Source: a virus
Length of the DNA: 24,209 nt
Virus record (IMG/VR): IMGVR_UViG_3300038701_001066
Location: 1-24,209 of that record
Reading direction: 5' to 3' (one strand)
Position numbers and translations under genes: made by a program. Below the pieces are notes generated by a model. It worked only from the letters and a program-made list of their open reading frames with translations, did not search any database and was not told the origin of the DNA. This document shows, one piece after another, positions 17,540-22,497 of this stretch (within the stretch, counting starts at the first letter, position 1; each line of letters starts with the position of its first letter).

Positions 17540-18745
17540 CTATCCTCTCTCTGCGTTCCCACGGCGCATCTCGACCACGGCGTTTGCTGCATCTGACCGG
17601 CCTCTCACGTAGCGGTCGGTCGTGCTGATCTGTGTGTGCTGGCTTGCGTCCCGTAGATGGAACGGCGAGACAAGACCCTTGGCCTCCGTGATGCCGGAGG
17701 ATCGAAGGTCCATCATTTTGAGCGACGAGGATAGCCCTACGGCGGCTCTGACGGTCGCAAACTGCTTTGCCAGGATGTTGTTGCGGGGCGGAAGGCCGTC
17801 ATCACACACGAACACCGGCCCGACACGGTTCTGGATATGCCCAAGACGCGCGCGGATCTCCGGCAGAGGGGCTAGGGACCATGTGTAAGCCTCGGGCAGC
17901 CGATCGCGGGTCTTGGACACAACTTTGGTGATTGAGGATAGGTCGGGGGCGATCATGTCCCACGTCAGGCCGCCGTCCCAGATCATGCCGTTGTGCTGGA
18001 CGCCGCCCTTCCTACCCTCTGCCGGGGCCCATTCGCCGTAAATGTCCACGCCGCGCAACAGCAACTCGAACCGCATCAGGACGGCAAGGGAAAGCAGGCG
18101 CATACCTCTCGTGTCGGCTTCGGCAACAATGGCCCGGACCTGCTCTCGGGTCGCAGTGACGGACTTCGGGGCTGGGGCCTTGATCCGCATTTCAGACCGG
18201 ACGGCCTTGACCTTCATGCAGCCATCGACCTCGCACCGGATGCCGTGCGACACGATCAGGCCGAAGTGGGTCCACCACCGCTTGATGTAATCGGCGGATT
18301 TGCTTTCAGCGCGCATGGACCGCGTCCAACAGGCCATCACGGCATAGCTGGTGGTGTCTATGGCTTGATCTCCGGCCCGCTGAGTGACCGTCTCGATCCA
18401 TCGGCGGTAGGTGTCGCGGGTTCCGGCCCGAACGTCGTGGACGGCACTGTGGTCGTCTGTCAGATAGCGATGCGCAAGCCATCCCCATGTGCCGATCTCG
18501 TAGGCCGATCCGTTGATGGTTGCCCACCACGTCAGCAAGTCGCGCGTGAGTCTCCTGCATTGTGCGGCACGGGCGAGATTGCCTTCCGGGGTAGGGTCGT
18601 CAAGCCTGACGGTCTTGTGCGCGTATCCGGCCTCGACATATCGTCTGGACGGCACCCAATACCACGCGCCTCGGATCTGCTTCATGAACGGCGCATAGAA
18701 CGGGTCGCTGTCGTCCCACACGCTCTTGTGGATTGCTCTGGCCAT
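17540..18745 (-). CDS. int: Tyrosine-family site-specific recombinase (phage integrase)
   Basis: This 401-residue protein would integrate and excise the phage genome. The start is the ATG at 18745, which has AAAGGA ahead; an earlier in-frame ATG at 18808 would overlap the upstream gene by 28 bases. Residues about 50-170 form an N-terminal core-binding-like helical region. The catalytic domain follows 195: R231 in FELLLRGVDI, K278 in SKTRDRL, R348 in MMDLRSSG, H370 in QHTQISTTDRYVRG and the nucleophile Y379. The usual first His of the HxxR box is Met345, a deviation I believe also occurs in some alphaproteobacterial phage integrase-like proteins. It lies inside the leftward operon rather than at an obvious genome end, and no attachment site is visible beside it. 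Confidence 0.88.
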   Translation of the reverse strand: MARAIHKSVWDDSDPFYAPFMKQIRGAWYWVPSRRYVEAGYAHKTVRLDDPTPEGNLARAAQCRRLTRDLLTWWATINGSAYEIGTWGWLAHRYLTDDHSAVHDVRAGTRDTYRRWIETVTQRAGDQAIDTTSYAVMACWTRSMRAESKSADYIKRWWTHFGLIVSHGIRCEVDGCMKVKAVRSEMRIKAPAPKSVTATREQVRAIVAEADTRGMRLLSLAVLMRFELLLRGVDIYGEWAPAEGRKGGVQHNGMIWDGGLTWDMIAPDLSSITKVVSKTRDRLPEAYTWSLAPLPEIRARLGHIQNRVGPVFVCDDGLPPRNNILAKQFATVRAAVGLSSSLKMMDLRSSGITEAKGLVSPFHLRDASQHTQISTTDRYVRGRSDAANAVVEMRRGNAERG

Positions 18746-18780
18746 CTGTCTGTCCTTTCTGTCCGCCGTTCCGTGGCGGA

Positions 18781-19170
18781 TTATCTCCAAGGGCCGCTGG
18801 ACAGCCATTCCTGACGGCCATCCTTGATCTCGATCACTTCATCCGCCGCCAGTATCGTCCACGTCTCGACCAGCGCATTGAGCAGGCGGTTGTGAAACGC
18901 AGCGGGGTATTGCTCTGCCAGGGCCCGCGCCTCCGAACCGTCAAGGATTTCGTGACAGTTCATGCAGCCAAACGCGACGGCCAGATCCGTTACCTTGGTC
19001 GAGATGCCTTTGCCGCTGACGGGCAGGTGGCATCCGACGGTGGTTTCAGATGATGCGCAGGGCCGACCAAGAAAAGACGCGATCCGCAACGTGCAGGGCT
19101 GGCCGGATGCTGACGCCATGATCATCGGGGATCGTAGCTTGGGCATCATGTGTGGCAGGTATCGATTCAC
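18781..19170 (-). CDS. YbcO/DUF1364-type HNH-like nuclease
   Basis: This 129-residue protein probably begins at the GTG at 19170, which has AAGGAG eight bases upstream and overlaps the previous stop (GTGA); ATGs at 19149 and 19146 lack a ribosome site. The DUF1364 pattern is clear: LRSP near the start, C26 in QPCTLRI, C38, an ETTVGCHLP segment with H48, KVTDLAVAFGCMNCHEILDG with C69, C72 and H73, and a C-terminal helix with VETWTIL. The cysteines and histidines suggest a zinc-supported treble-clef nuclease fold. Relatives such as E. coli prophage YbcO are presumed endonucleases in recombination or replication. Its place between the recombination genes and the integrase agrees. Confidence 0.82.
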   Translation of the reverse strand: MNRYLPHMMPKLRSPMIMASASGQPCTLRIASFLGRPCASSETTVGCHLPVSGKGISTKVTDLAVAFGCMNCHEILDGSEARALAEQYPAAFHNRLLNALVETWTILAADEVIEIKDGRQEWLSSGPWR

Positions 19171-19334: not shown

Positions 19335-19543
19335 GCTGCTTTTTCCATCTTTGCTTTGCGCTCAAGAAATGGCCGCCCTTCCTTTTGGAAATACAAGATT
19401 CTGTCTTGCGGCACTTTGAGGGCTCTTGCGATTTGCCAAGCCCCAAGGCCAAGACTTTCGGCCTCATCCAGCCACGCCAAAAGAGATATGGGGCGGTATG
19501 CGCCTGATTGATCGACCTCTGGAGTCCATTCAGGCTGCGTCAT
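19331..19543 (-). CDS. Small helix-rich protein, possible DNA-binding
   Basis: This 70-residue protein starts at 19543 with GGGAGA ahead and overlaps the end of the upstream HTH gene by 14 bases. Residues 20-55 read ISLLAWLDEAESLGLGAWQI, then ARALKVPQDRILYFQKEG, which could form a helix-turn-helix-like fold. A basic tail follows (LERKAKMEKAA). DNA binding is a guess from this pattern. Confidence 0.55.
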   Translation of the reverse strand: MTQPEWTPEVDQSGAYRPISLLAWLDEAESLGLGAWQIARALKVPQDRILYFQKEGRPFLERKAKMEKAA

Positions 19544-19757
19544 GGTCTTCTCCCTTCCACCATTTCCGGGGCATGGTCCCTTCGGCATTGCACGGCGGGA
19601 AGTGCTTGTTGGTGTCGTCCCGCAGTCGCTTCATCAACCCTGCGATGGCATTCTTGCTCACGCCAAACCGCTCCCCGATCTGCTTGAAGGTCATTCCCTC
19701 GTTGTCGTAGAGGTCGAGGATTGTCAGAAGTTGCTCGTCGGTCCATTCGCGGCTCAT
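19530..19757 (-). CDS. Small helix-turn-helix DNA-binding protein
   Basis: This 75-residue protein starts at 19757, where ATGA joins it to the previous gene and GGTGGAG serves as ribosome site. Residues 5-45 form a typical HTH: WTDEQLLTILDLYDNEGMTF, then KQIGERFGVSKNAIAGLMKR. The layout (W-start, EGMTFKQIGERFGVSKNAI) resembles the sigma-70-region-4/GcrA-like class of alphaproteobacteria, but the similarity is only partial. The tail is charged with WW. It may regulate transcription within the phage or bind DNA during recombination. Confidence 0.7.
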   Translation of the reverse strand: MSREWTDEQLLTILDLYDNEGMTFKQIGERFGVSKNAIAGLMKRLRDDTNKHFPPCNAEGTMPRKWWKGEDHDAA

Positions 19758-20074
19758 GTCGGCACTCCACCAAGCCCGCAGTATCCGACCTCGCGCTTCA
19801 CCCCGTAGCCTTCCGGGTTGGCCGCCACGTTTGCCGCAGCCTTCTTGTGGAAGGTCATGGGTGGCTTGTTGTTGCCTTCCTCTTGTGCAAGGCAAGCCAT
19901 CTCGCGCTTCACGGCTGACTGGAACAGAGCGTCGGACGCCATGATCGCGCGCCACCGCCAAAGAATGCAGCGGTCGCCATCACAATTCGGACCAACCTTC
20001 TGGTCAAACGTCCTGGCAACGGGGCACGGGAATGTCTCGCGGGCTTGGGCCGGGGTCAGGTAAATGTCGGTCAT
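19754..20074 (-). CDS. Cysteine-containing phage protein (CPxxR...C-x4-C-x2-WRW)
   Basis: This 106-residue protein overlaps both neighbours by ATGA and has GAGGA upstream. Residues 6-40 show LTPAQARETFPCPVAR, then CDGDRCILWRW, with C17, C31 and C36; C61 follows. A conserved end region reads NPEGYGVKREVGYCGLGG with C99. This CP...C...CxxWRW arrangement recurs in short phage operon proteins and suggests a small metal-binding or redox fold. Function is unknown. Confidence 0.65.
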   Translation of the reverse strand: MTDIYLTPAQARETFPCPVARTFDQKVGPNCDGDRCILWRWRAIMASDALFQSAVKREMACLAQEEGNNKPPMTFHKKAAANVAANPEGYGVKREVGYCGLGGVPT

Positions 20075-20310
20075 TCCGCGCCATCCTCAATGACGTGTGA
20101 CGGCATCCAGCGACGAGCAACCTCAAGCGGCCAGCCGTAAAGGCACGTTACTTCCCATCCTGACGTGCAAAACACCCCGACCAAGAAACACGCCTCTGCT
20201 GCCGTCATGCCGTCTGGCGTGTGCAGATCGCCGCCTTCGTCAATTCGGATTTCCCACTTCTCGTTTGGAAGGTCTGGGTGGTGGTAGATAATTTTGAGCG
20301 TGTCAGTCAT
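20071..20310 (-). CDS. Hypothetical phage protein, 79 residues
   Basis: It starts in an ATGA overlap with the recT-like gene and ends in one with the cysteine-containing gene, and GGGGG precedes the ATG. The sequence is a mixed alpha/beta mini-domain (LKIIYHHPDLPNEKWEIRID, then TSGWEVTCLYGWPLEVARRW). No family is recognised. Confidence 0.6.
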   Translation of the reverse strand: MTDTLKIIYHHPDLPNEKWEIRIDEGGDLHTPDGMTAAEACFLVGVFCTSGWEVTCLYGWPLEVARRWMPSHVIEDGAE

Positions 20311-21293
20311 TTGTCGCCCCCTTTCGCCAGCCGGCTTTCATGCCAGCCGCCGCACCAATCAACGGCCTTGGCTTCGTCGCTCTCATAGGGGCAGGCTGTC
20401 ACGGGCTCACCATTCTGAAACGCCTTCGCTCCTTCTGTGTATTCGTCGGCACCTGGAAAGGCCCCGTCCCACGGCACACCGTCCGTCCAGTGGGCGTCAT
20501 CCATAACTTCGCCGGATACGTCCTTTGGGGCTTCCTGCTCGGCCAGCTTGGCGGCAAGGTTTTGGCGCGGCTCTTGCGGGGTCACGTCGCGGATAGGCTC
20601 CGGCGCATCTTCCTCGACCATCAGGCGGCGCAAGTCCTCGGCGGATAGATCGAGACGCTTGCAAAGGCGGCGGATCACCGTCTTTTTCCACATCTCCTCC
20701 GACCATTGCTGCCAAATGCCGTTGGGCTTGTCGTGCTTGCGCTGCTGAGGGCTGGACCGGCGGATCTTGTCGATCTGCGCGGCGTCCATAAATTCGCGCA
20801 CGATTGTCCCGTCTTTCAGTTTGCCGATCGCGTAGGCCGCAACGGGATCGCCCTTGTCGCCAAACAGGACGGGCTGGTGGACCAAGCGTTCCTCGTCACC
20901 CACAACGTAGTCAAAGCGGCCTTCGTCCAGTTCCCGCTGGTAGACGATGTGCGCCCGAATATCGCGCACATCACCAGATCGGCGGGCCATCTTGATCAGG
21001 CCGAAAACCATTGGCATTGCCTGTGCTTTGCCGCTGAACGGAACAATCGCGGCCTCTCGACCATCTGGAACAAGCCCGGCGGCGGCAATGGTGCGGATCG
21101 ACTTCATCACCGACGCGGCATCGCAACGCAGGATTTCAGGGTTGTCTTGAACGGCCACAATGGCGGCGTTGCGAAAGGCATCGATCGACACGTTGGACGG
21201 CAGGGCCAGTTCCTTTGCGTCGATCATCTTTTTCAGATCGCTCTTGAACCGAACAACTGGGTGCTGCTGGCTCTGGGGGGCAATGTCGTTCAT
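20307..21293 (-). CDS. recT: RecT-family ssDNA-annealing protein with RMF/CrpP-like C-terminal tail
   Basis: This 328-residue recombinase anneals single strands produced by the exonuclease encoded just upstream. The start is the ATG at 21293 with GAGGA ahead; a GTG at 21305 would overlap the exonuclease stop. The RecT core spans about 15-225, with AAGLVPDGREAAIVPFSGKA at 71-90, a VFGLIKMARRSG helix at 96-107, VHQPVLFGDKGDPVAAYAI at 138-156 and EEMWKKTVIRRLCKRL at 199-214. Residues 226-280 are an acidic, probably flexible linker. Residues 280-320 then read GADEYTEGAKAFQNGE followed by CPY, W313 and GGW, the spacing seen in ribosome modulation factor/CrpP-like domains. RecT proteins usually end near 270 residues, so this extension is unusual. 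Confidence 0.9.
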   Translation of the reverse strand: MNDIAPQSQQHPVVRFKSDLKKMIDAKELALPSNVSIDAFRNAAIVAVQDNPEILRCDAASVMKSIRTIAAAGLVPDGREAAIVPFSGKAQAMPMVFGLIKMARRSGDVRDIRAHIVYQRELDEGRFDYVVGDEERLVHQPVLFGDKGDPVAAYAIGKLKDGTIVREFMDAAQIDKIRRSSPQQRKHDKPNGIWQQWSEEMWKKTVIRRLCKRLDLSAEDLRRLMVEEDAPEPIRDVTPQEPRQNLAAKLAEQEAPKDVSGEVMDDAHWTDGVPWDGAFPGADEYTEGAKAFQNGEPVTACPYESDEAKAVDWCGGWHESRLAKGGDK

Positions 21294-21301
21294 CGAAGTC
21301 C

Positions 21302-22279
21302 TCACACGTTGGGCAGACGGCCATCCGCCTGCATTTCACCGAACCGATGCAACAGGCTCGGCGGGTATTGATAGGTCAGCATTTCCGCGCCGACGCCGGG
21401 CCAGTCATGCGCTTTCAGGCAGTCGGCCATCTGATCAAGCCCGTGACGGCACAGAACGCGCGCCCAATAGAGCGTATCCTCGTCCAGACGGGTCGGGATC
21501 ACCTCGTAAGGCTCGGTTGATTGCAGGAACACAAAGGCGCACTCCTTGGCCGTGGTCTGAAACACCTGCTCGGACCCCATGACGGCCAGCGCCATCTGCA
21601 TCGGATAGCCGTGATCCGTGATCGCCCGCTGGACGGCCAGTTTCAGGTCGTTTCCTTTTGGGGCCATCGTTTTCAGGTCGCCAAAGTCGTAGCCGTTTGA
21701 CGGTATGCAGTCGGGGCGGCTCTTGACCCAGATCCCGGTCTGCTCGTCCTGCCATATCATGCTGATTTCGATCAGGTCTGATTTCAGCACTTCGACGGCA
21801 AGCGGGTTGGCCGCCAAGTTCTCGGCCATGTAGGTGATCTTCTCCATCTGCTCTGGCTTCAAGAGCATCCGGCCAGCCGCGCGGGCATCGAAGTCAGTCC
21901 AGAACGCAGCACGGGGCGCGGCGCTCTCGGACCATTCACCTGTCCGCTCAAACGCGGCGATCTGGGTTGCTGTCGGCCTTTGCGGGGCCCCCTCCGGCAC
22001 AAAAATGAAATGCTCCTCAAACACCTCGTCGCCCAAGATCAGGCTATGGGCGGCCTTGCCCAAAGAAAGCGCATCGCTCTGCTCTTTCTGCGGATACCTG
22101 TTCGGGTTGCCGTCCCACGTTTTCCAGAACGCATGTGGGCTGTGCAGGGCAATCTTTCTCAGTCCGGTGCTGGATACCGACGGGCCAGGGCAGACATCTT
22201 GGGTGTGATACCATTCCATCGGCATCCGGTATGCTCCCGGCTCCGTGATCTGCTCGCCATGTTGGATTGTGCGGATCAT
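21302..22279 (-). CDS. RecE-like PD-(D/E)XK exonuclease
   Basis: This 325-residue nuclease pairs with RecT in double-strand-end recombination. The ATG at 22279 overlaps the upstream stop (ATGA). Motifs of the lambda-exonuclease/RecE C-terminal fold are in order: LSLGKAAHSLIL with H78 (71-82), E171 in EISMIW, D190 in KSRPDCIP, D201-L-K203 in FGDLKTM, and Q228 after GYP in YPMQMALAV. The spacing D190 to DLK is short, as in RecE/DUF3799-type enzymes. At 325 residues it matches the nuclease part of RecE, not full-length E. coli RecE. It would degrade the 5' strand to leave 3' ssDNA. RecT is encoded 8 bases downstream. Confidence 0.88.
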   Translation of the reverse strand: MIRTIQHGEQITEPGAYRMPMEWYHTQDVCPGPSVSSTGLRKIALHSPHAFWKTWDGNPNRYPQKEQSDALSLGKAAHSLILGDEVFEEHFIFVPEGAPQRPTATQIAAFERTGEWSESAAPRAAFWTDFDARAAGRMLLKPEQMEKITYMAENLAANPLAVEVLKSDLIEISMIWQDEQTGIWVKSRPDCIPSNGYDFGDLKTMAPKGNDLKLAVQRAITDHGYPMQMALAVMGSEQVFQTTAKECAFVFLQSTEPYEVIPTRLDEDTLYWARVLCRHGLDQMADCLKAHDWPGVGAEMLTYQYPPSLLHRFGEMQADGRLPNV

Positions 22280-22497
22280 TCGCAGTCGTCCCATTCCTTG
22301 ATGTTGGTGTAGATCGTGCCGTCAGTGGCGCGCACGTCGATTGACCGCTTGCCATACGTCACGGCCAGCACGTCGCCGGTCAGGGATGCGCCGTCGGCGG
22401 TGAACGACACCACAGCCCCAAGCATTGGGACGCCACGGCTTTGCGCGACGTTGCGGCGCTGGCCCAAAAGTGCGGCGGACATGGCGAGGCGGGTCAT
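22276..22497 (-). CDS. Hypothetical phage protein, 73 residues
   Basis: This small protein overlaps both neighbours by ATGA. An N-terminal helical part (RLAMSAALLGQRRNVAQSRG) precedes a compact beta part (PMLGAVVSFTADGASLTGDV, then GKRSIDVRATDGTIYTNI), perhaps an SH3-like barrel. No family or site is recognised. Confidence 0.58.
   Translation of the reverse strand: MTRLAMSAALLGQRRNVAQSRGVPMLGAVVSFTADGASLTGDVLAVTYGKRSIDVRATDGTIYTNIKEWDDCE

Follow-up and report, generated by a model that had tools for sequence, protein, structure and literature searches.

The RecT-type single-strand annealing protein encoded in the window, the whole stretch of DNA analysed here (a 24.2-kb virus record from IMG/VR, whose records are frequently fragments), ends in a C-terminal domain whose assignment to the RMF/CrpP fold is supported by sequence profiles and by structure prediction. 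Our leading reading, in which we place a little less than even confidence, is that this tail forms a portable C-terminal docking module, in which a disordered, acidic linker is followed, usually by way of an HWTx9PG motif, by an RMF-fold two-helix hairpin, and that its partner would be the RecE-like exonuclease encoded immediately upstream.

The recT locus and the C-terminal tail

The gene lies in a run of overlapping genes on the minus strand, with the following features.

21302..22294, (-): RecE-like exonuclease (exonuclease VIII type, DUF3799; phrog_412 1.3e-58, DUF3799 6.7e-13), the candidate docking partner
20307..21305, (-): RecT-type single-strand annealing protein with tail, 332 aa (PF03837 5.5e-36, phrog_148 9.5e-60)
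20604..21176, (-): RecT annealing core, residues 44-234 (Pfam PF03837; AlphaFold2 pLDDT mostly 80-94)
20472..20615, (-): disordered linker, residues about 231-278 (AlphaFold2 pLDDT <50, in the full-length model at residues 227-274), its end overlapping the HWT motif
20451..20492, (-): HWTx9PG motif, residues 272-285, common to other tailed recombinases
20331..20444, (-): predicted RMF-fold hairpin, residues 288-325 (Pfam, NCBIfam, AlphaFold2, Foldseek, VIA-align)
20071..20310, (-): 79-aa ORF matching no Pfam, NCBIfam or PHROG family, its start overlapping the recT stop (ATGA)
19754..20074, (-): W, a 106-aa four-cysteine protein with invariant cysteines (CPxA, CxGxxC, WRW, CGxGG), its start overlapping the preceding ORF

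The recT gene opens on a GTG, with an ATG four codons further in, and overlaps by 4 bases the exonuclease gene upstream of it, this adjoining RecE-like gene making the two a RecET-type exonuclease/annealase pair. The core belongs to the RecT family by its PF03837 profile match and by its predicted fold, and in the full-length model it resembles Listeria phage LiRecT 7ub2 (Foldseek E 4e-10). W matched no Pfam, NCBIfam or PHROG family. Further downstream, on the same strand, the window encodes a small helix-turn-helix protein (19530-19748, Sigma70_r4/GcrA-like), a YbcO-like nuclease (18781-19170, PF07102) and a 422-aa protein without clear family match (17540-18808); in another locus, L274, a counterpart of the first and a gene similar to the second follow a tailed protein, and a protein similar to the third is found at the same position (L274 292-1533).

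The sequence-only reading had proposed an RMF/CrpP-like C-terminal domain at 20310-20456, which corresponds to RecT residues 284-332 and spans the hairpin, and its proposal is borne out by profiles, predicted fold and residue pattern alike. Pfam PF04957 (RMF) matches residues 288-325 with E 1.6e-7 and 31.7 bits (cut-off 27.9), the last 48 residues on their own reach 36.4 bits, and the NCBIfam model NF041886 (Rmf_CrpP_fam) gives 38 bits for a cut-off of 28. The tail stays under the cut-offs of the phage-type model NF041887, of the true-RMF equivalog NF011162 (21.6, cut-off 40) and of the CrpP model NF033696 (13.8 bits, cut-off 55). Single-sequence phmmer against the PDB matched the V. parahaemolyticus RMF 2jrm at E 0.002, and a 13-row profile did so at 3.8e-9. 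AlphaFold2 predicts a two-helix hairpin with a mean pLDDT of 91, for which Foldseek returned RMF 2jrm (probability 0.99) and 9iot_y (0.98) as the top two and the sole high-probability PDB matches, with VIA-align Z values of 5.4 and 6.8, respectively; within the full-length model 41 residues of the tail superpose on the same structures at 1.8 and 1.3 A, respectively. No other RMF match occurs in the window's record, and the exact DNA motif appeared in none of 100 shuffles of the window. The conserved unit is larger than first seen, including the HWTx9PG motif directly upstream of the hairpin, and the 60 residues preceding the hairpin carry a net charge of -8.

Spread of the tail and exchange of cores

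In IMG/VR about 25 related proteins end in the hairpin, often with HWTx9PG added; they come from two RecT-like families, from a divergent part of the second of these and from phrog_11517. The tail is present on seven type-1 (phrog_148) RecT proteins, window included, and 23 untailed type-1 relatives have different ends, counts that, like the others given here, depend on profile thresholds and on the removal of near copies; in the whole records of the six other tailed type-1 proteins the sole RMF match lies inside RecT. The wider search was done with DNA patterns, the tail alignment having no sufficiently conserved stretch. A pattern for the hairpin occurs in at least 119 viral contigs, chiefly in small free-standing ORFs; two matches, L145 and L156, lie on the second RecT-like family (phrog_561), and a search seeded with these two yielded eight distinct tailed type-2 proteins. 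Loci with a tailed phrog_561 protein comprise L145, L156, L206-L210, L240, L245, L286, L303 and L310, to which L289 and L313 add divergent phrog_561/4171 proteins. A core-independent pattern joining HWTx9PG and the start of the hairpin was found in 15 contigs, with 11 in-frame matches, every one at a protein C-terminus; ten of these proteins are RecT-like, and the eleventh, from phrog_11517, occupies the annealase slot. A phrog_3657 protein with the hairpin is also encoded in a bacterial genome (L325), in a locus that has a YqaJ exonuclease. The following two proteins are likely annealase-slot proteins.

L274 5185-6099, (-): phrog_11517 protein ending in the RMF hairpin, beside a DUF3799 exonuclease
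L332 6789-7892, (-): phrog_3657 protein with the RMF hairpin at its end, next to a YqaJ-type exonuclease

Hence, the fusion of an RMF domain to RecT, which had been noticed in this one protein, is real and is not peculiar to it, since several core families have the tail; a one-off fusion or a sequencing artefact is ruled out by its presence on at least seven type-1 and at least eight type-2 proteins. On the type-1 core tree the tailed proteins form a single clade, and the type-2 core tree requires four tail changes, at least three of which are imposed by branches with good support. Outside these viral records, a scan of genome contigs with RecT yielded nothing related for one query and, for the other, a single Sphingomonas relative lacking the tail, and no tailed SSAP was seen by tblastn in the named-phage collection (two tails and two recombinases as queries) or in the plasmid collection (window RecT and one tail).

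Some other sequences resemble the hairpin. The annealases of L211, L217, L218, L219, L221, L340, L347 and L360 have RMF-like hairpin ends without CPY, e.g. GYEGGMRGIRKGLTA...NYDAGF, which are perhaps distant versions of the RMF-fold tail (those of L347 and L360 were assessed by eye). In Streptomyces phages a small free-standing RMF-like ORF (L029 1468-1638, (+)) is flanked by the genes of the capsid maturation protease and the scaffolding protein, and a 387-aa ORF with the motif in L146 apparently contains three degenerate RMF-like repeats.

Pairs of related loci differ in their cores under a constant tail. Up to the recT start the DNA of L309 and that of L314 agree at 96% of positions, and from the linker on at 86%; between these limits the cores show no DNA similarity and 44% amino acid identity, the tails being 95% identical in amino acids. 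L206 and L209 share 90% in the exonuclease region, 37% amino acid identity in the core and 97% of the DNA of linker and tail, and in L206 and L035 cores from different families precede a 261-nt linker and tail that is 98% identical, the upstream region differing as well. Tails on different cores diverge chiefly at silent sites, as expected under purifying selection: between L035 and L209 the tail codons show five silent and no replacement differences, and for L309 and L314 the tail dN/dS is 0.15. Core exchange under a constant tail, together with the chiefly silent differences, therefore suggests, as far as sequence comparison goes, that selection acts on the tail independently of the core. 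The exchanged cores could also result from recombination between phages that both already had the tail, which counts against the docking module.

Candidate partners of the tail

In lambda both the exonuclease and SSB are bound by Red-beta through its C-terminal domain, which recombination requires and annealing does not (PMC5052646, PMC7496540). RecT is expected to end in a small helical domain that binds a partner (PMC9772228); the RMF-fold tail sits where such a domain would. As a docking module, it would bind a protein rather than RNA: the core would bind and anneal single-stranded DNA like other RecT proteins, and the tail would tether the annealing protein to another component of the recombination complex, for which the RecE-like exonuclease is the likeliest candidate; in this way the annealing protein would be loaded onto the 3' strand upon its exposure, the job that the Red-beta C-terminal domain has in lambda. 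A host- or partner-targeting role, which the sequence-only reading had offered, is compatible with the evidence; in our leading reading the exonuclease is the first candidate, followed by host SSB or the replisome and then by W.

The exonuclease is put first by its co-occurrence with the tail. It is RecE-like in 26 of 27 tailed loci and YqaJ in the remaining one; untailed loci comprise 16 with a RecE-like enzyme, 32 with a YqaJ-like one and five with none seen, the seeds of the RecE-like HMM having been taken from tailed loci. All 23 untailed type-1 RecT proteins have a YqaJ neighbour, and many of the tailed loci came from searches with W, with the HWT pattern or with that of the hairpin, independently of the exonuclease. 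On the exonuclease tree tailed loci stand apart from untailed RecE-like ones, with core types mixed and one untailed exception (L244). The converse search, starting from the exonuclease, gave a set of 31 loci that overlaps those found previously, with the hairpin detected by profile on the neighbouring protein in 23 of them and on three core families; where the exonuclease is more than 60% identical to that of the window, the neighbour has the hairpin in 7 of 7 loci. Against this partner speak L332, where the hairpin adjoins a YqaJ-type exonuclease, and the RecE-like exonucleases beside untailed annealases, namely in the 16 loci counted above and, within the converse set, in L341, L343 and L352. 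Mantel tests among tailed loci gave r about 0 for tail against exonuclease distances, and tail distances did not track core distances either; it should be noted that the association of tail and exonuclease thus rests on presence and absence, because the divergence of the one is untied to that of the other, and that it could mark a phage lineage.

The tail could instead dock the annealing protein on a host protein, for instance SSB or a replisome component, setting its host range and bringing it to the fork. The host range of SSAPs depends on recognition of the C-terminus of the host SSB (PMC10711431), Red-beta binds SSB via its C-terminal domain (PMC7496540), and a shared host partner would keep the tail constant while cores swap. 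However, hairpin and linker are strongly acidic, which makes them unlikely to receive the equally acidic tip of SSB, and the tail correlates with the type of exonuclease, which a host partner does not require; we consider such a host partner unlikely.

It is also conceivable, though we take it to be quite unlikely, that the tail has no specific partner and serves as a C-terminal cap that stabilises or solubilises the protein, passed down within one phage lineage along with the exonuclease and the W gene. A cap would accommodate the linkage of the tail with the W gene downstream, the lack of co-variation between tail and exonuclease sequences and the single clade of tailed type-1 proteins, but a dN/dS far below 1 with invariant hairpin residues, the occurrence of the tail on several core families and the degenerate hairpins found at the corresponding position of other annealases speak against it.

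W itself, encoded two genes downstream in the same overlapping-gene run, is a third, improbable partner. It is found near 13 of 15 SSAPs with the tail and 1 of 53 without it (Fisher 4.5e-11), its co-variation with the tail is weak (r 0.25, p 0.05), and when W alone was the query, 10 of 12 strong loci encoded a tailed protein upstream of it, the other two being a locus cut at a contig end and one (L279) where it comes after SSB in an Erf module. This last phage is tail-less, and a W-type gene also follows an untailed annealase (L242). Around 6 of 23 tailed loci no W was found in the available sequence, so W is linked but non-obligatory, and its role as an obligate partner is ruled out.

The least probable reading is the one suggested from the sequence alone, in which the tail would bind ribosomes, rRNA or RNA of another kind and couple recombination to growth state. 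In E. coli RMF, mutational analysis distinguishes fold residues from basic residues tied to rRNA contact or dimer formation (PMC8126665). The fold residues G16, G23, C29, P30, W40, G43 and W44 are all present in the window (7/7) and are kept, position by position, in 15-20 of 20 tails, as RNA binding would have it, but the basic R3, K5, R11 and R45 are replaced by W, G, D and H in the window (0/4 kept) and retained in 1, 0, 1 and 2 of the 20 tails, respectively. The hairpins are moreover acidic, with net charges of -2 to -8 versus +5 for the E. coli RMF segment. RMF is reported as conserved in gammaproteobacteria (PMC8126665). A ribosome role for the tail is hence unlikely on these residues, because those for rRNA contact or dimer formation are absent in the window and in nearly all relatives, and RNA binding with growth-state coupling is very improbable. 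A docking tag is likelier than a ribosome binder, since the RNA-contacting residues are missing and the tail is common to several recombinases beside one kind of exonuclease.

Relation to known proteins and implications

The tail shares with RMF (PF04957; PDB 2jrm, 6h4n, 4v8g, 9iot) the two-helix hairpin, the complete set of fold residues and a score above the Pfam cut-off. It differs in being acidic, in lacking the four basic residues, in falling below the NF011162 cut-off and in its fusion to a recombinase, as the end of a 332-aa protein, whereas true RMF is free-standing and of about 55 aa. Rmf/CrpP and phage Rmf-like proteins (NF041886, NF041887, phrog_13106, phrog_10492) are close in that NF041886 is passed and the motif is common to many small phage ORFs, but the phage proteins are chiefly free-standing ORFs of about 45-130 aa and not the C-terminal domain of a recombinase. 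With the Red-beta C-terminal domain the tail has in common that a small helical domain follows the annealing core; that domain is described, however, as a relative of lambda Orf, and its fold is absent among the Foldseek and VIA matches of the tail, though the two may be related.

The core lies within the RecT/Red-beta annealing proteins (LiRecT 7ub2; phrog_148, phrog_561) by sequence and predicted fold; in the LiRecT structure the C-terminal residues are unresolved (PMC9772228), and in the literature searched we found no description of an RMF-type C-terminal domain on RecT/Red-beta proteins and no paper connecting RMF domains with recombinases. Shuffling of C-terminal domains among SSAP families is already known (PMC8093625) and likewise places one module on distinct SSAP families, but the module there is a helix-turn-helix; an RMF-fold module in such a role was not found in the literature searched.

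It is possible, and we propose it tentatively, that phages have made the RMF fold a pairing module between RecE-like exonucleases and whatever single-stranded DNA protein fills the annealing slot. As the tail would mark this slot, the phrog_11517 and phrog_3657 proteins are predicted to be annealing or recombination-mediator proteins, and both families are here flagged as likely to act in recombination. If the docking module is correct, a fold known from ribosome hibernation would have a new function, and phages would swap annealing cores while keeping one docking tail; as a portable tag, the tail might be used in recombineering to match annealing proteins with exonucleases of choice.
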